From: Bacilli bacterium
GTDB taxonomy: Bacteria; Bacillota_I; Bacilli_A; RF39; UBA660
Assembly: GCA_017404555.1 (NCBI GenBank)
Contig: JAFRCD010000006.1
Location: 1-64,000, forward strand
Length of the DNA stretch: 64,000 nucleotides
Direction of reading: 5' to 3'
Shown here piece by piece: positions 12,697 to 23,458 of this stretch (position 1 is the first letter of the stretch; each line of letters starts with the position of its first letter). The translations under genes and the position numbers were made by a program. The notes below the pieces were generated by a model. It did no database searches and had not been told where the DNA came from. It saw nothing but the letters and a program-made list of their open reading frames with translations.

Positions 12697-13761
12697 ATGA
12701 GAAAAGCAACACTAATAATTCTAGTAGGATTAGGGGTATTATTACTATGCCTATTTGGTTTTTATATGTATGAAACAATGCCTGTTGATCGTTCTTCAAA
12801 TGCTGATGTTGAGGTTGTTATTCCTCAAGGAATGTCAACAAGGAATATTGCTAAACTTTTAAAGAATAAAAATCTTATTCGTAATGACACTTTCTTTATG
12901 ATTTATGTAAAGTTAAATAGAAAGAGCTCTATTAAAGCTAGTACTTATGAATTAAAAAAGAATATGAGTATGGATAAGATAGTTAATATTCTAAATAAAG
13001 GTAATACCTATAATCCTGATGTAGTCAGAATAACTTTTAAAGAAGGAGAAAGTATTACTAAGTATGCTAAGGAAATAGCTAAGAAGACTGATAATAGTTA
13101 TGATGATGTTATAAAGACTATTAATGATAAAGAATATTTAAAAACACTTATTGATAAGTATTGGTTTTTAACTGATGATATTTTAAATGAAAATATCTAT
13201 TATTCATTAGAGGGATATCTTTATCCTGAAACAATTGAGTTTAAAAACAAAGAAGTTTCTCCTAAAGAAATAATTGAAACTTATTTGAAACATACCGATA
13301 AAGTTTTATCTAAAGACAAGGATAAACTAACTAAAGGTAAGTATAAAATACATGAATACCTTACTTTGGCTTCTATTCTTCAATTAGAAGGAAGAAATAC
13401 TAAAGATCGAAGAATGATAATGGGTGTTTTTGAAAACAGACTTGCCAAGGGAATGAATTTAGGTAGTGATGTAACTACTTACTATGGTTTAAAGAAAGAA
13501 ATGGATAGTGACTTAAGCGTTGAGGAATTCAATAAGGAGACTCCATATAACACTAGAACTAATAATATGGTTGGTAAACTACCAGTAGGTCCTATTTGTA
13601 ATCCAGAACTTGATAGTATTGAGGCAGTTCTTAATCCAACTAAAAATGATTATCTTTTCTTTGTAGCTGATAAAAATGGTAAGGTTTACTATACTAAGAC
13701 TAATGCTGAACATACAAAGAAAGTACAAGAGTTAAAGGATAATAATTTATGGATATGGTAA
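12697..13761 (+). CDS. mltG: Endolytic murein transglycosylase MltG
   Basis: Membrane-anchored lytic transglycosylase that cuts nascent glycan strands outside the cell and may set their length. One TM helix (about 4-25), a LysM-like region (VVIPQGMSTRNIAKLL, from about residue 40) and the YceG catalytic domain are present. The catalytic block is LASILQLEG, where most homologues have ASIVEKE: the second glutamate is kept and the first is Gln. SDVTTYYG and the closing NP-KNDYLFFV-D motif are standard. The 354 residues are normal. It overlaps trmR by 13 bases. Confidence 0.93.
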   Translation: MRKATLIILVGLGVLLLCLFGFYMYETMPVDRSSNADVEVVIPQGMSTRNIAKLLKNKNLIRNDTFFMIYVKLNRKSSIKASTYELKKNMSMDKIVNILNKGNTYNPDVVRITFKEGESITKYAKEIAKKTDNSYDDVIKTINDKEYLKTLIDKYWFLTDDILNENIYYSLEGYLYPETIEFKNKEVSPKEIIETYLKHTDKVLSKDKDKLTKGKYKIHEYLTLASILQLEGRNTKDRRMIMGVFENRLAKGMNLGSDVTTYYGLKKEMDSDLSVEEFNKETPYNTRTNNMVGKLPVGPICNPELDSIEAVLNPTKNDYLFFVADKNGKVYYTKTNAEHTKKVQELKDNNLWIW

Positions 13762-14342
13762 TAAAAGAAATTAAAAAAGATGCTTTAGCTGAAGGGATTC
13801 CTATTATGTTAGATGATGGAATTGAGTTTTTATGTAATTTTATCAAGGAACATGAGTGTAAAAAGATTTTAGAGATAGGAGCTGCTGTTGGTTATTCAGC
13901 TATTATGATGGCTAATGTAGATGAAAAAATCAATATAACAACAATCGAACGTGATGAAAAGAGATATTTAAAAGCTTTGGAGAATATTAAAAAGGCTGAT
14001 AAAGAAAAACAGATAAAACTTATTTATAATGATGCTTTAAATATTAATATTGAAGATGAAGAATTTGATTTGATTTTTATTGATGCGGCTAAAGCCCAAA
14101 ATATTAAGTTTTTTCAAAGATTTGGTCTTTACTTAAAGAGTCATGGGTTCATTATAACTGATAACTTGAACTTTCATGGCTTGGTTGATAAAGACTTAGA
14201 AGAAATAGAAAGTAAGAATGTTAGGGGAATTGTTAGAAAGATAAAAGAGTTTAAAGAGTTTCTATTAGAGAACAATGATTATGAAACAGTATTCTATGAT
14301 GTTGGTGATGGAATCTCTGTTAGTGAAAAAATAAAGGAATGA
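13749..14342 (+). CDS. trmR: tRNA 5-hydroxyuridine methyltransferase TrmR (YrrM-like)
   Basis: Class I SAM-dependent O-methyltransferase, 197 residues. The SAM-binding motif I is ILEIGAAVGYSA (about 42-53), motif II TTIERDEKR, and IFIDAAKAQN carries metal-binding Asp. In Bacillus, YrrM (TrmR) methylates 5-hydroxyuridine at tRNA position 34 to 5-methoxyuridine, and the hydroxyl is installed by YrrN/YrrO. Both homologues occur downstream here, supporting the same role. AAAGGA lies 9 bases before the ATG inside mltG. The two pilin-like genes separate it from trhP1, which is unusual. Confidence 0.87.
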   Translation: MDMVIKEIKKDALAEGIPIMLDDGIEFLCNFIKEHECKKILEIGAAVGYSAIMMANVDEKINITTIERDEKRYLKALENIKKADKEKQIKLIYNDALNINIEDEEFDLIFIDAAKAQNIKFFQRFGLYLKSHGFIITDNLNFHGLVDKDLEEIESKNVRGIVRKIKEFKEFLLENNDYETVFYDVGDGISVSEKIKE

Positions 14343-15983
14343 TAATATGTTTCAAATTTTGGCTGACGATCTAGGTAGTTATTGTAGCGAGGCAGGAGTA
14401 GCTAATATTTTCTACATAACTAAAATACTATTTACTATTTTACAAGTAGTAGTACCAATAATATTAATAGTTTCAGCGAGTTTCTCTTTAATTAGTATGA
14501 TGTCTTCACCTGATAATCCTAAAGCAAAAAAGAGTTTAATTAATAAGGTTATAGCAGCAATAGTAGTAGTTTTAATACCATTTATTATTGAAATAGTTAT
14601 GGGAGCAATTGCTACTGGTGGGGGAAGTAAGTTTAATTATGCCGATTGTTGGACTAATGCTTATGAAGCATATTCAGCACAAGAAGGTGAAGAGGAAGAT
14701 TCTGATCCAGGGGAGAAAATAAGAGAAAAGTGTTTAATTAATAAAAAAACTAACAAGCCTTATGATGAAGAAAATTGTTGTGTTAGTGGCGGTAAGTGGT
14801 ATAAATCAATAGGAAAAAATGGTGATCCTTGTGATGAAAAAGAATCAACATCTAGTTCTACTAAGTCAGCTCAAAACGAGCAAGCGACTTCAAATAATAG
14901 TTCTAACCCTAGTTCATCTAATACCAATTCATCAAGTAGTAGTTCTAAGGCTTCTACTAATAGTAACGAAAGTAAAAAAGTTGTTGCTGATGAGGTAGTA
15001 GCAGTTGCTAAGAAGGCACTAAAAAGCCCAAGTAAAAATGGAACTGCTTATAAAAGCTTATATGAGAAAAAGACTGGTAAAAGTGCCGGCTCTGGTGGAT
15101 ATTGTACTGAGTTTGCCAATTGGGTACTTTATCAAGCATTATCTAATGCTGGTAAAAAGAATTTATGGAAGCCAGCTAATGGTGCTAGTTCATTAAGAAA
15201 GGCGTATAAAAAATACATAGTTTCTAATTGTAAATACAGCAATATTAAACCAGGAGATATTCTTTCCTTTGGTGGGCATACTGCAGTTGTTATAGCTAAT
15301 AATGGAAGCTCTGGTATTCAAGTTATTGAAGGACATTCTGGAGTGAAGAAAAATGGAATAAAAGTAATTAAGAGTAATTCTGGTATTGATAAAACAGTTT
15401 ATTCAAAAGCATTATTAACTTCTGATAGTGTTTGGAAGAATTGGAAGATTATAAGAGTAAAATAATTATAAAAAAGGTGTGATAATATGTTTCAAATTTT
15501 AGCTGATGATTTAGCTAGTTATTGTAGTGAGGCAGGAGTAGCCAATATTTTCTACATAACTAAAATACTATTTACTATTTTACAAATAGTAGTACCAATA
15601 ATATTAATAGTTTCAGCAAGTTTCTCTTTAGTAAGTATGGTATCTTCGCCTGATAATCCCAAGGCTAAAAAGAGTTTAATTAATAAGGTTATAGCAGCAG
15701 TAGTAGTAGTTTTAATACCATTTATTATTGAAATAGTTATGGGAGCAATCTCTACTGGTGGCGGAAGTAATTTTAATTATGCCGATTGTTGGACTAATGC
15801 TTATGAAGCTTATTCACAACAACAAAGTACAGGAGATGATTCTGAATCAGGGGAGAAGATAAGAGAAAAATGTGTAATTAATAAAAAGACTAAGAAGCCT
15901 TATGATGAAGAAAATTGTTGTGTTAGTGGTGGTAATTGGTATAAATCAATAGGAAAAAATGGCGATCCTTGTGATCCTAAAGA
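14343..15983 (+). repeat. Tandem gene duplication of the pilin-like module
   Basis: The unit from the ribosome site through about codon 165 occurs twice (about 14343-14846 and 15483-15983) with high DNA identity. Between the copies lies the linker and CHAP-encoding part of the first gene only. Confidence 0.9.
14347..15465 (+). CDS. Pilin-like two-TM protein fused to a CHAP amidase/endopeptidase domain
   Basis: 372 residues in four parts. (1) Two TM helices (about 18-50 and 62-92) join through a lysine-rich loop (DNPKAKKSLINK). This is the layout of VirB2/TrbC-type pilin subunits, and by the positive-inside rule both ends face outside. (2) A cysteine-rich segment (100-165) has Cys in ADCW, REKC, ENCC and DPCD, probably disulfide-bonded. 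(3) A Ser/Asn/Thr-rich linker spans 166-210. (4) A CHAP domain (about 215-372) has Cys253, His311 and Glu328 in the catalytic positions, predicted to cut peptidoglycan. No classic signal peptide; TM1 would serve for export. It starts 5 bases after trmR. Pilin homology is inferred from layout. Confidence 0.82.
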   Translation: MFQILADDLGSYCSEAGVANIFYITKILFTILQVVVPIILIVSASFSLISMMSSPDNPKAKKSLINKVIAAIVVVLIPFIIEIVMGAIATGGGSKFNYADCWTNAYEAYSAQEGEEEDSDPGEKIREKCLINKKTNKPYDEENCCVSGGKWYKSIGKNGDPCDEKESTSSSTKSAQNEQATSNNSSNPSSSNTNSSSSSSKASTNSNESKKVVADEVVAVAKKALKSPSKNGTAYKSLYEKKTGKSAGSGGYCTEFANWVLYQALSNAGKKNLWKPANGASSLRKAYKKYIVSNCKYSNIKPGDILSFGGHTAVVIANNGSSGIQVIEGHSGVKKNGIKVIKSNSGIDKTVYSKALLTSDSVWKNWKIIRVK

Positions 15984-16023
15984 TGAAACGAAAGCTACTA
16001 ATGATAATGCTAAAAAAGCCTAA
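15487..16023 (+). CDS. Pilin-like two-TM protein, paralogue without the CHAP domain
   Basis: 178 residues, nearly identical to the first part of the preceding gene across both TM helices and the cysteine-rich segment (for example NIFYITKILFTIL and EENCCVSGG). It ends shortly after the last cysteine with a short charged tail in place of the Ser-rich linker and CHAP domain. Like a major subunit next to an enzyme-tipped variant, it could assemble with its neighbour, but this is speculation. AAAGGTG lies upstream of the ATG. A terminator follows, so trmR and both paralogues probably form the end of the ireB operon. Confidence 0.82.
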   Translation: MFQILADDLASYCSEAGVANIFYITKILFTILQIVVPIILIVSASFSLVSMVSSPDNPKAKKSLINKVIAAVVVVLIPFIIEIVMGAISTGGGSNFNYADCWTNAYEAYSQQQSTGDDSESGEKIREKCVINKKTKKPYDEENCCVSGGNWYKSIGKNGDPCDPKDETKATNDNAKKA

Positions 16024-16093: not shown

Positions 16094-16942
16094 ATGAAGT
16101 TGATTACAAAGGTTGATTCTAAAAACTATAATGAGTATAAAGACTTAACAGATGCTTTAATTATGCCTCTTGCCAATTATGCAGTTGGATACAAATCATA
16201 TTTTATGTTAGAAGAAATTAAAGAAGCAAAAGGTCTTGATCTTTTTGTAGTTATCAATAAAAACATTTTTAATGATGATATTGATGAATTAAAAGAAATA
16301 TTAAAAGAAATAGATAAACTAAATATTAGTGGTATTCTTTTCTATGATTTATCTTTAATTGCGTTAAAAAAAGAATTGAATTTAAAAACAGATTTAATAC
16401 TAGATATTACCCATATGATGGATAATCATGATTTAGTTAATTACTTTTCTGACTTAGGAATTAACGGAGTTCGTTTACCTAGTGAATTAACTATTGATGA
16501 GATAAAGAGTATAAAACAAGAAAGCAAAATACCAATAATGGTTAATTATATTGGTGTAGAAGATGTTGCTTTTTCAAAGCGAAAACTACTTACTAATAGT
16601 AATATTAAAAAGGATAGTACTATTATTAAAGAAGAAATTAGTAAAGAAGAGTTTATTGTTAACGAATCTGATTTAGGAACTAGTTTTTTAAAGAAAGAAA
16701 TCTTTAACGCTAGTTCAGCTTTAGAAGAATTAGTAGAAGTAAATACTGACTATATTATTCTAAATGAGGACTATATCGAACATGATAAATTTGTAAAAAT
16801 ACTTGCGAAAACTAAAGAAGTATTAGATAATAAGAAAAATTATTCTGATTATCAAAAGGAAATTGAATCCTTAATTGGTAATTATACAGGGTTTTTATAT
16901 AAAGATATGATTTATCGGGTGAAAGGAAATGAAAAAGATTGA
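16094..16942 (+). CDS. trhP1: U32-family-like protein, tRNA hydroxylation protein TrhP1 (YrrN-like)
   Basis: 282-residue TIM-barrel-like protein, the smaller partner of the U32 pair. In Bacillus, YrrN and YrrO (TrhP1 and TrhP2) are needed for 5-hydroxyuridine at tRNA position 34. The assignment rests mainly on position directly before the clear TrhP2 homologue (14-base overlap) and on U32-like strands such as SGILFYDLSL and GINGVRLPSELTI; the cysteine motif of U32 is absent, as expected for this partner. AGAAGGTGAT precedes the ATG. Sequence similarity to YrrN could not be scored here. Confidence 0.75.
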   Translation: MKLITKVDSKNYNEYKDLTDALIMPLANYAVGYKSYFMLEEIKEAKGLDLFVVINKNIFNDDIDELKEILKEIDKLNISGILFYDLSLIALKKELNLKTDLILDITHMMDNHDLVNYFSDLGINGVRLPSELTIDEIKSIKQESKIPIMVNYIGVEDVAFSKRKLLTNSNIKKDSTIIKEEISKEEFIVNESDLGTSFLKKEIFNASSALEELVEVNTDYIILNEDYIEHDKFVKILAKTKEVLDNKKNYSDYQKEIESLIGNYTGFLYKDMIYRVKGNEKD

Positions 16943-18107
16943 ACTATTGTCACCGGCAGGTGATTTAGAAAGATTAAAAGTCACATTACTTTATGGTGCA
17001 GATGCAGTCTACATTGGTGGTAAAGAGTTTAGTTTGCGTGCTAATGCCACTAATTTTTCACTTGATGAAATAAAAGAAGCTTGCCTTTTTGCTCATAAAT
17101 TAGATAAAAAAGTCTTTTTAACAGTTAATATGGTTATGCATGAAACTGATTTAGAGAAAGTATATGACTATATTGATAAAGTAATTAATTGCGGGATAGA
17201 TGCTTTTATTGTTAGTGATTATAACTTAGCTCATTATATAAAAGAAAAGCATCAAAAAGAAGTTCATATTTCTACTCAGGACTCTGTTACTAATAAAGTA
17301 ACAGCTAAACTATTAAAGGATTTAGGTGTGAAGCGAATAGTTTTAGCTAGGGAATTATCTAAAAAAGAAATAAAGGAAATAATTGATTATAGTGAAATAG
17401 ATATTGAAGTATTTATTCATGGAGCGATGTGTACTTGTATGTCAGGTCGTTGTGCTCTTTCAAATTATACAACAGGAAGAGATGCTAATAGAGGAGGATG
17501 TGCTCAAGTATGTCGCTTTGTCTTCGATAGTGATGGTAATAAATTTACAATGGCTACTAAAGATTTAAATATGGCTAAGTATATAAAAGATCTAATTGAT
17601 ATTGGTGTTGCCAGTTTAAAAGTAGAGGGAAGAATGCGTTCATTATACTATTTAGCAACAGTTATTGGTACGTATCGTAAAATAATTGATGATTGCTATA
17701 ATAATAGTTTAACTGATGAAAAAATGCAATCTTATCAAAGAATTTTAAATAATGTTGCTAATAGAGAATCAACTACCCAGTACTTTATGAAGGAAGCTGA
17801 TCAGAATGATCAATACTTTGTTGGTAGACAAGAAGTATCTAATCAAGAATATTTAGGACTAATTACTGGTTATGATAAGGATAATAAGTGTCTTATTTTA
17901 AAAGAACGTAATTACTTTGAAATAGGGGATAAGATAGAAATATTTACTCCTAAGGGAGATAGTTATCAAATAGTTGTAGAAGAGCTTTTTGATGAAGATA
18001 TGAACGAACTAGATGTAGCTCGTCATCCTGAACAAGTATTAAAAATAAGATTTCCTAAAGAAGTAGAACCTTATTCCATGATTAGATTAATAGAAAAGAG
18101 GAAGTAA
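16929..18107 (+). CDS. trhP2: U32 family protein, tRNA hydroxylation protein TrhP2 (YrrO-like)
   Basis: 392 residues, annotated historically as peptidase U32. The N-terminal LLSPAGDLERLKVTLLYGADAVYIGG region is shortened here to LLSPAGDLERLK (6-17) and GADAVYIGG. The U32 signature includes HGAMCTCMSGRC and RGGCAQVCR (about 169-198), whose cysteines probably bind an Fe-S cluster. YrrO/TrhP2 participates in prephenate-dependent tRNA U34 hydroxylation in Bacillus. The C-terminal small beta domain is present. It overlaps trhP1 by 14 bases and is followed one base later by the HD gene. Confidence 0.9.
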   Translation: MKKIELLSPAGDLERLKVTLLYGADAVYIGGKEFSLRANATNFSLDEIKEACLFAHKLDKKVFLTVNMVMHETDLEKVYDYIDKVINCGIDAFIVSDYNLAHYIKEKHQKEVHISTQDSVTNKVTAKLLKDLGVKRIVLARELSKKEIKEIIDYSEIDIEVFIHGAMCTCMSGRCALSNYTTGRDANRGGCAQVCRFVFDSDGNKFTMATKDLNMAKYIKDLIDIGVASLKVEGRMRSLYYLATVIGTYRKIIDDCYNNSLTDEKMQSYQRILNNVANRESTTQYFMKEADQNDQYFVGRQEVSNQEYLGLITGYDKDNKCLILKERNYFEIGDKIEIFTPKGDSYQIVVEELFDEDMNELDVARHPEQVLKIRFPKEVEPYSMIRLIEKRK

Positions 18108-21547: not shown

Positions 21548-21562
21548 TTCAACTCTTTTTTA
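21531..21562. terminator. Bidirectional terminator between tig and the PASTA gene
   Basis: Stem AAGAGTTGAAC / GTTCAACTCTT (11 bp), loop AAATA, with A run before and T run after. The tig stop codon lies in the loop and right arm. Confidence 0.88.
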
Positions 21563-23368
21563 ACTACTTATTTGTAATGTTACTGTATCACAATTAGTAA
21601 ATGTTCTTGAATCAATACTACCAGCATTGATAACAATACCTTTGGTAATACCAGTAGAACTCTTGTATTGACAATTGAACTTAACCTTTGGATAAGTACT
21701 TTTAATCTTACTACAAGTACCACTTGGATTAGAGAAGTCATATAATTCCTCATATAAATAAACGGTTGTTTTGGTAGTGCATGAATTGGTTTGTGGTTTT
21801 GTACTATTTGCTGAAGAATTATTTACTTGAGCTGCTCTACTATAATTATTTACTTGTGATGGAGTACTTTCGGCACTTGGTTTAACTCCGGTTGATAATG
21901 TTAAATTAACTGTTATATTAGAAGCGGTTTTAGATCCGGCAGCGATAGATTGTTCAAGGACAGTATTCTTGGCTTTATCAGAGTTTTTATAAGTAAAGGT
22001 GTAATCTATTTTAAGTTTATCTAATTTTTCTTTAGCGGCACTTTTAGAAAGACCAACTAAGTTTGGCATAGTAACATTTTTGCCATCAGATATTTTGATG
22101 ATAATAGTATCATCGTTTTTAATTGTTTCACCTTTTTTATATGAGTAAGATATTACTTCACCTTGTTTAACAGTATCACTGAATTCATGTTCTTCCTTAT
22201 ATTTAATATTATATTTCTTAGCCCAAGCATAGAATTCATCTAAATTCTTAAATTTTGGCATCTTTAGTTTACCAGAAGATAAAACTATTTTTAATGTTTC
22301 TTTTTCTTTGACTTTATCCTTATAATCAAAGTTAGATGATATTACTTTGTTCTTTTTAATTGATTCATCATGCTTATAGACAAATTCTAAGCGTAGTTTG
22401 TTTTTAATAGCCCAATTACTTATTTCTTTAATATTCATATCTTTAAGATTAGGTACAGTTATTTCTTTTCCTTTAGAAATAGTAATAACTACTTTATCAT
22501 CTTTTTTAACACTAGAACCTGGTGTAATATCTTGACGAGATACTTTTCCTTTCTTGATTTTATTACTAAAGTCTTCTTTTAATTCATAATCTAATTGATT
22601 TTGTTTTAAATAGACAATCGCATCAATTTTATCCATGTTCTTTAAATCACGCAATTTAATTTCATGGTCTTCAACTTTTTCTCCCAGAGAGAAGGCAAGT
22701 AGAATTTCATCATCTCTTTTAACTGTACCAACTTTACTTTGGGAAATAAGGGTGTTTTCCTTACGATCAGATTCGTTAAAGTCAACAACGATATTCGATA
22801 AATAGTTTTCTTTAATATATTTAACTACTCTTTCAACACTCCAACTAGTCATATCTGGGATAATAATCTCTTTACTAGGATCAACTCCGTCACTGACAGA
22901 GATTGTGATAATCTTATTCTTATCAATATATTCATAATTATCTTGAGTAATGACTTTGTTTTCTTTAATTATTTCACTATATTCATATACTTGGTCAATC
23001 CCAACACCATTCTTCTCTGACCATTTAATTATGTCGGTAATATTTTTGTTGGTGAAATCAGGTACTTTAACTTTATTAGTAAAAATACTCGCAAAGTTAA
23101 GGCGATAATTCATATTGAAAAGATAAAAAACTATTAATAGAATAGAGGCGATGTTAATAATGGTGTTTTTCTTTGTCTTATGAGTACATAAGAAAGAAAT
23201 GTACATAAGAGTAAATAAGAATAATAAACTTTCACTGATTAAAACAGTATTAAAATTCTCCAAAATATCTTTATAAACTATACATCCGATAAAACTACCA
23301 ATAGCTACTATAAAGATAATTGCGAGTAGGATAAATTTAAAAACATGTTTACTCTCTTTTTTCTTCAT
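21560..23368 (-). CDS. Membrane protein with six PASTA repeats, no kinase domain
   Basis: 602 residues. Three TM segments (about 10-32, 42-60, 68-86) are followed by six extracellular PASTA repeats (about 95-500), starting in order VPDFTNK, IPDMTSW, LRDLKNM, VPNLKDM, MPKFKNL and MPNLVGL. A Ser/Asn/Gln-rich linker and a C-terminal domain with paired cysteines (NSCTTKT, GTCSKI, FNCQYK, TNCDTV) come last. PASTA domains bind muropeptides or lipid II and usually belong to Ser/Thr kinases or PBPs; here no kinase or PBP domain exists, so it may be a sensor or wall anchor. The start at 23368 follows AGAGGTG; an in-frame upstream ATG lies before that site. Faces tig convergently and the glycan operon divergently. 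Confidence 0.85.
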   Translation of the reverse strand: MKKKESKHVFKFILLAIIFIVAIGSFIGCIVYKDILENFNTVLISESLLFLFTLMYISFLCTHKTKKNTIINIASILLIVFYLFNMNYRLNFASIFTNKVKVPDFTNKNITDIIKWSEKNGVGIDQVYEYSEIIKENKVITQDNYEYIDKNKIITISVSDGVDPSKEIIIPDMTSWSVERVVKYIKENYLSNIVVDFNESDRKENTLISQSKVGTVKRDDEILLAFSLGEKVEDHEIKLRDLKNMDKIDAIVYLKQNQLDYELKEDFSNKIKKGKVSRQDITPGSSVKKDDKVVITISKGKEITVPNLKDMNIKEISNWAIKNKLRLEFVYKHDESIKKNKVISSNFDYKDKVKEKETLKIVLSSGKLKMPKFKNLDEFYAWAKKYNIKYKEEHEFSDTVKQGEVISYSYKKGETIKNDDTIIIKISDGKNVTMPNLVGLSKSAAKEKLDKLKIDYTFTYKNSDKAKNTVLEQSIAAGSKTASNITVNLTLSTGVKPSAESTPSQVNNYSRAAQVNNSSANSTKPQTNSCTTKTTVYLYEELYDFSNPSGTCSKIKSTYPKVKFNCQYKSSTGITKGIVINAGSIDSRTFTNCDTVTLQISS

Positions 23369-23439
23369 TGAAAACACCTCTTTGCCTTTACAATAATTAT
23401 ACACCATTATGTTGTAAAATTGTTTAAGATATTGGTAAA

Positions 23440-23458
23440 TTGACACAGGGCGTGTCAA
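23440..23458. promoter_or_regulatory. Inverted repeat between divergent genes
   Basis: TTGACAC-AGGGC-GTGTCAA, 7-bp arms, in the region between the PASTA gene and the glycan operon. It could be an operator or -35-like element on either strand. No partner -10 at good spacing was found. Confidence 0.4.

Follow-up and report, generated by a model that had tools for sequence, protein, structure and literature searches.

According to a 2025 review (PMC12857230), VirB2 pilins are absent from the T4SSs of Gram-positive bacteria except Patescibacteria, and VirB11 homologues are universally absent, although a study of pLS20 names a virB11 gene and may thus provide an exception. In the Patescibacteria, pilin arrays are present (PMC12102498). 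A literature search for the pilin family PF18895 led to this Patescibacteria study alone, and fusions of pilins with hydrolases are not mentioned in those parts of its text that could be searched. Nor did we find, in the literature searched, a description of a pilin-type module fused to many kinds of enzymes. Here we describe a family of gut Bacilli in which pilin-type genes and a TadA/VirB11-type ATPase stand beside VirB4 in a fixed cluster, in contrast to what the review states, and in which a pilin-type module is joined to a dozen or more kinds of enzymes.

The two genes that concern us, CDS1 and CDS2, are neighbours in a stretch of 64,000 nucleotides (the window) from a Bacilli genome of 944 kb in 10 contigs (Table 1). 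CDS1 starts 5 bases past the stop of the trmR-like gene and CDS2 starts 21 bases past CDS1; a scan for consensus promoters and terminators gave nothing above chance. The protein encoded by CDS1 runs from a module with two TM helices through a Cys-rich segment and a Ser-rich linker into a CHAP domain, and CDS2 consists of the first two of these parts. The preliminary description had this right, including Cys253 and His311, and also placed the pair correctly between trmR and trhP1 in a row of tRNA-modification genes, as the O-methyltransferase and U32 flanks and the upstream mltG confirm. The CHAP domain matches PF05257 with 32.6 bits (Pfam cut-off 26, E = 1.1e-7), and its Cys253, His311 and Glu328 align with their equivalents in other module-fused CHAP domains.

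Table 1. Position of the gene pair, its parts and its neighbours in the window.
Feature	Position	Strand	Remark
mltG-like gene (upstream slot marker)	12697..13761	+	identified by eye; conserved neighbour
trmR-like O-methyltransferase (upstream slot border)	13749..14342	+	
CDS1, pilin-module/CHAP fusion, 372 aa	14347..15465	+	intact ORF
CDS1 two-TM pilin-type module, residues 1-105	14347..14661	+	
CDS1 post-module segment, about residues 106-170	14662..14856	+	second half Cys-rich; common to CDS2
CDS1 Ser/Asn-rich linker, about residues 171-205	14857..14961	+	low model confidence
CDS1 CHAP region, residues 206-372	14962..15462	+	Pfam match 250-329
CDS1 Cys253	15103-15105	+	
CDS1 His311	15277-15279	+	
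CDS1 Glu328	15328-15330	+	
CDS2, CHAP-less twin, 178 aa	15487..16023	+	intact ORF
CDS2 two-TM pilin-type module, residues 1-105	15487..15801	+	
trhP1-like U32 protein (downstream slot border)	16094..16942	+	
trhP2-like U32 protein	16929..18107	+	TrhP model 292 bits, cut-off 534

The near identity of the two modules, which had been noted earlier with correct coordinates, amounts to 93.3% over residues 1-105, for DNA and protein alike. Beyond residue 105 the identity is 80% for DNA and 69% for protein, and over all 178 codons it is 88% and 83%, respectively. For the whole overlap dN is 0.10 and dS 0.25, while for the module alone the values are 0.031 and 0.225, which indicates that the module is under purifying selection. 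Given these values, and since the best identity to a module from another genus is 43%, the duplication postdates the split from any sampled genus; the earlier suggestion that it is fairly recent agrees with this.

Judged by profile comparison, the window modules are homologues of the T4SS_pilin family PF18895, and are not filed as members of it: they reach 18.3 and 20.9 bits, below the cut-off of 26.6. On the other hand, the cut-off is passed by homologues with the same architecture, namely an Amidase_3 fusion (L162, 33.9 bits) and an NlpC/P60 fusion (L180, 29.2 bits) that occupies the same trmR-trhP1 slot as the window pair. The module landmarks in CDS1 are Cys13, Pro37 and Cys101-Trp102. In an alignment of 49 rows, the residues C13, P37, L40, L48, K61, A71, C101 and W102 are invariant between the window pair and the pilin-type proteins of a Tad/T4SS-type cluster, which is described below.

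AlphaFold predicts two long helices for the module (residues 16-53 and 58-91, pLDDT about 80-88), with an overall pLDDT of 60.9 for CDS1 and 68.5 for CDS2. A structural match to VirB2 or TrbC, which the preliminary description had proposed to look for, did not appear: the best Foldseek matches had E-values of 1.0 and 1.4, none of them was a pilin and nothing fell under E = 1, so the search speaks neither for nor against a pilin fold. A sequence search of the PDB gave no match for CDS1, and the module profile found only weak matches to receptors and other membrane proteins. A comparison with the Mbov_0395 family (NF045849) had also been proposed; here the pair scored 12.3 and 12.8 bits against an NCBIfam cut-off of 40.

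The orientation of the module in the membrane can be estimated from its charges. Among 110 modules, Lys and Arg together number on average 4.5 in the loop between the helices and 0.5 in each flank, and this basic loop is placed inside in 106 of them. By the positive-inside rule we infer that the loop lies inside and that both module ends, and hence the CHAP domain, lie outside the membrane. Some of the module proteins have an N-terminal stretch that resembles a signal peptide. Taken as a whole, the earlier interpretation has stood as regards the pilin-like nature of the module (a weak PF18895 match, with homologues over the cut-off), the expected outside position of the CHAP domain and the recent duplication, but the fold and the Mbov_0395 match were not confirmed. 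A role of the pair in division, which was also considered, is not specially supported.

For tethering, two TM helices with outside ends would be enough, and the module might be a plain membrane anchor that holds wall enzymes at the outer face of the membrane, its descent from pilins being incidental and the machine encoded by the cluster uninvolved. We consider this rather unlikely, if by no means far-fetched. Cys residues are found near both positions 13 and 101 in 108/110 modules and Pro37 in 110/110, which one does not expect of a mere tether, nor does one expect invariant residues that are common to the modules and the cluster pilins. Twins without an enzyme, such as CDS2, are also hard to account for as anchors.

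The fusion in CDS1 is one of many. We found 110 proteins, in 41 genomes, that begin with the module and continue for at least 100 further residues. With Pfam run on part of these and some C-terminal parts judged by eye, the domains that follow the module include NlpC/P60, CHAP, C39-like, GDSL/SGNH, Amidase_3, M23 and phage lysozyme, and furthermore VanY, S11, YkuD or Big_2, ELLD, an esterase and a weak GH99; MBL-fold and phosphodiester-glycosidase-like domains were recognised by eye. Linkage clustering gives 23 C-terminal clusters, some of which join two kinds of enzymes. An isolated assembly fusion, which the preliminary description had feared together with homologues that always lack CHAP, is thus ruled out: the survey of relatives that it called for shows fusions of the module with CHAP and other hydrolases throughout the family, and many genera share the architecture. 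In summary, a two-helix pilin-related module has been fused repeatedly to many surface enzymes, apparently for placement outside the cell by a secretion machine whose genes these genomes also carry.

Among the collected fusions, 20 are from G204 and 13 from G069. By eye, the fusions of G204 include C-terminal parts that resemble an MBL fold and a beta-propeller. Such expansions, as well as cargo that goes beyond wall opening (esterases, GH99-like and C39 domains and the MBL-fold and phosphodiester-glycosidase-like domains recognised by eye), would suit a different role, in which the pilins with enzymes do not help the cell through its own wall but serve as weapons or for feeding, being driven against or into other bacteria in the manner of an epibiont or predator. 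The genomes of the family are small (0.6-1.8 Mb), RF39-type Bacilli are reported to be highly reduced, with auxotrophies (PMC6784871), and Patescibacteria need a T4SS with pilin arrays in order to grow as epibionts (PMC10633639). However, DD-carboxypeptidase and L,D-transpeptidase-like cargo suits maturation of the cell's own wall, and we regard delivery to neighbours as unlikely.

We also compared modules within and between genomes. Modules of one genome whose enzymes belong to different clusters have a median identity of 44%, as against 32% for modules of different genomes with enzymes of the same cluster and 31% for the remaining pairs; for 51 of 87 modules the nearest module is found in the same genome, as compared with 5.3 for shuffled labels. 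The rows of this comparison are not independent, and lineage-specific duplication contributes to the values. Since modules are alike within a genome despite different enzymes, the module looks like the constant part, fitted to a machine, and the cargo like the part that is exchanged. On the other hand, this likeness may be due to lineage-specific duplication and nothing else, which counts against a link to the machine.

The place of the window pair is itself conserved. The order mltG, trmR, module gene, trhP1, trhP2 is found, whole or in part, in more than 20 genomes. The enzyme in this slot is mostly NlpC/P60; it is CHAP in the window and in three further genomes, and one locus besides the window, L238, pairs a fusion with an adjacent plain copy. 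In a tree, the window pair groups with the slot proteins (SH-aLRT 93, from few columns and with a quick method). In four genomes that were examined (G045, G051, G050 and G071) trmR and trhP1 abut or overlap, so the slot also exists empty; this alone does not tell gain from loss. Elsewhere in the window, the minus strand holds a 632-aa ORF (21560-23458) with PASTA-like repeats, in which no kinase part was seen by eye.

The same genome contains two further module proteins (C2:87928 and C2:88926). Both belong to the Tad/T4SS-type cluster, which lies on the same contig as the window pair at a distance of about 65 kb and has the order cpaB-tadA-tadB-tadC-cpaE-pil1-pil2-virB6-virB3-virB4. The window pair is one outlying site among family-wide fusions of the module, alongside a conserved cluster, a context absent from the preliminary description. 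The TadA/VirB11-type ATPase is recognised by T2SSE (100.3 bits), the CpaB/RcpC-type protein by RcpC (29.4 bits, cut-off 28.8) and VirB4 by AAA_10 (45.2 bits); of the NCBIfam models, Mbov_0397 fits VirB4 best, with a score of 348 bits, which is under the cut-off of that model. The VirB6-like protein is close to the cut-off of TrbL_4 (26.8 bits against 27), and the VirB3-like one is named for its position alone. Two membrane proteins resembling a Tad platform stand at the expected place with no convincing Pfam or NCBIfam match; the TadB/TadC, CpaE, VirB3 and TadE-type assignments are by position and appearance. VirB4 is followed by a 960-aa protein with matches to GDSL/SGNH, CHAP and phage lysozyme, a candidate wall hydrolase, then by a member of the coupling-protein family (PF02534, 200.9 bits, C2:97915) and by ordinary genes (rpoD and polC by eye). 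A prepilin peptidase gene lies outside the cluster; as a marker of the machine it is uninformative, being present in genomes without the machine too. In G069 no match to the prepilin peptidase model PF01478 was seen.

A scan of GTDB contigs gave 418 VirB4 relatives. The best 80 of these are 84-89% identical and include Candidatus Onthousia and Faecimonas, and around these best 80 the cluster order is unchanged as far as the contigs reach. For the trmR of the slot, identity between genera is about 46-61%, a comparison in which the genomes are not matched throughout. In 78 of the best 80 loci VirB4 is split in two overlapping ORFs of about 186 and 596 aa, a conserved split that is also present in the genome of the window.

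Within the family, which we take to be a member of the order RF39, we sampled 59 genomes from 59 genera. The module was found in 57, VirB4 in 51 and the coupling-protein family in 56. Two of the empty-slot genomes, G045 and G051, are those without module, VirB4 and coupling protein, and this co-absence argues against a plain anchor. Six genomes have the module and no VirB4 match, possibly through draft gaps; this would fit an anchor and counts against a link to the machine. In a sample of the class, good module matches occur in 17 genomes of the same family besides the one studied here, and outside the family only 5 of about 131 genomes have weak matches. PF18895 matches in other sampled families of Bacilli are mostly short frames, many with internal TGA codons as in mollicutes, and both of the places that we inspected adjoin VirB4.

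The coupling-protein family, so widespread and next to the cluster in the genome of the window, might suggest that the machine moves DNA in or out, with the CHAP pilin opening the wall for its passage. According to a study on competent Streptococcus sanguinis, the wall hydrolase LytF has a part in pilus extrusion (PMC13192262). However, the relaxase PF03432 has no match in the genome of the window and is above cut-off in 10/59 family genomes, there away from the core VirB4, and many of the cargo enzymes have no evident part in DNA transfer. We therefore hold DNA uptake or release to be very unlikely. In G003, G008, G057, G059, G062, G069 and G074 the relaxase matches are strong and lie at contig places away from the core VirB4; such loci, in some cases with distant VirB4 copies, suggest separate mobile elements.

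The explanation that we consider probable, if far from certain, is that the window pair represents dispersed pilin-type subunits, one with CHAP and one plain, which serve the chromosomal hybrid Tad/T4SS machine. The module would insert in the membrane such that its two ends face outwards and its basic loop inwards; the ATPases of the machine (VirB4-type and TadA/VirB11-type) and its pilin-handling parts would recognise it; the enzyme, retained or pushed out at the point where the machine traverses the wall, would cut peptidoglycan locally; and CDS2 would fill positions without an enzyme. We infer the handling and export of the fusions, the activity of the enzyme and its place of action. Homology to the pilin-type genes of the cluster, the family-wide fusions, the conserved slot and the co-absence in two genomes support this explanation. 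Against it count, apart from the points raised above, the position of the pair outside the cluster, the scores under the PF18895 cut-off and the empty fold search. This explanation and the three alternatives overlap and are not fully exclusive. Maybe the module is even a universal export tag of a modular cargo-pilin system in these reduced-genome gut Bacilli, where the hybrid machine mounts or ejects any fused enzyme for contact with other cells, a genome having as many as about 20 fusions; this is a tentative idea, which we would sooner doubt than accept. If the machine does handle the fusions, it would be a natural plug-in system for display or delivery, and a lead on how uncultured Bacilli with reduced genomes deal with their surroundings.

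How does the system compare with known ones? With the VirB2-like pilins of PF18895, found in the T4SS of Patescibacteria (PMC12102498) and in mollicute-type integrative elements, it shares the two-TM module, with profile matches from weak to significant, homologues that adjoin VirB6 and VirB4, and several divergent copies per genome. Here, however, many copies bear enzyme domains of large size and lie at scattered places in the chromosome. The VirB1-type hydrolases of Gram-positive T4SSs, such as PrgK and TraG of pIP501 (PMC12857230), are membrane-anchored wall hydrolases with CHAP or other domains as well, whereas the anchor of CDS1 is a pilin-type module, an enzyme-free twin stands alongside and the pair lies away from the cluster. 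A TadA/VirB11-type ATPase and an RcpC/CpaB-type protein are shared with the Tad/Flp pilus machine, but here they form one row with VirB4, VirB6-like and VirB2-like genes. Finally, the order of pilin-like, VirB6-like and VirB4 genes in the mycoplasma ICE (Mbov_0395-0396-0397) is the same as in the cluster, and Mbov_0397 is the best NCBIfam match of the cluster VirB4; on the other hand, all these models stay under their cut-offs, the cluster has no relaxase and its place in the chromosome is fixed.
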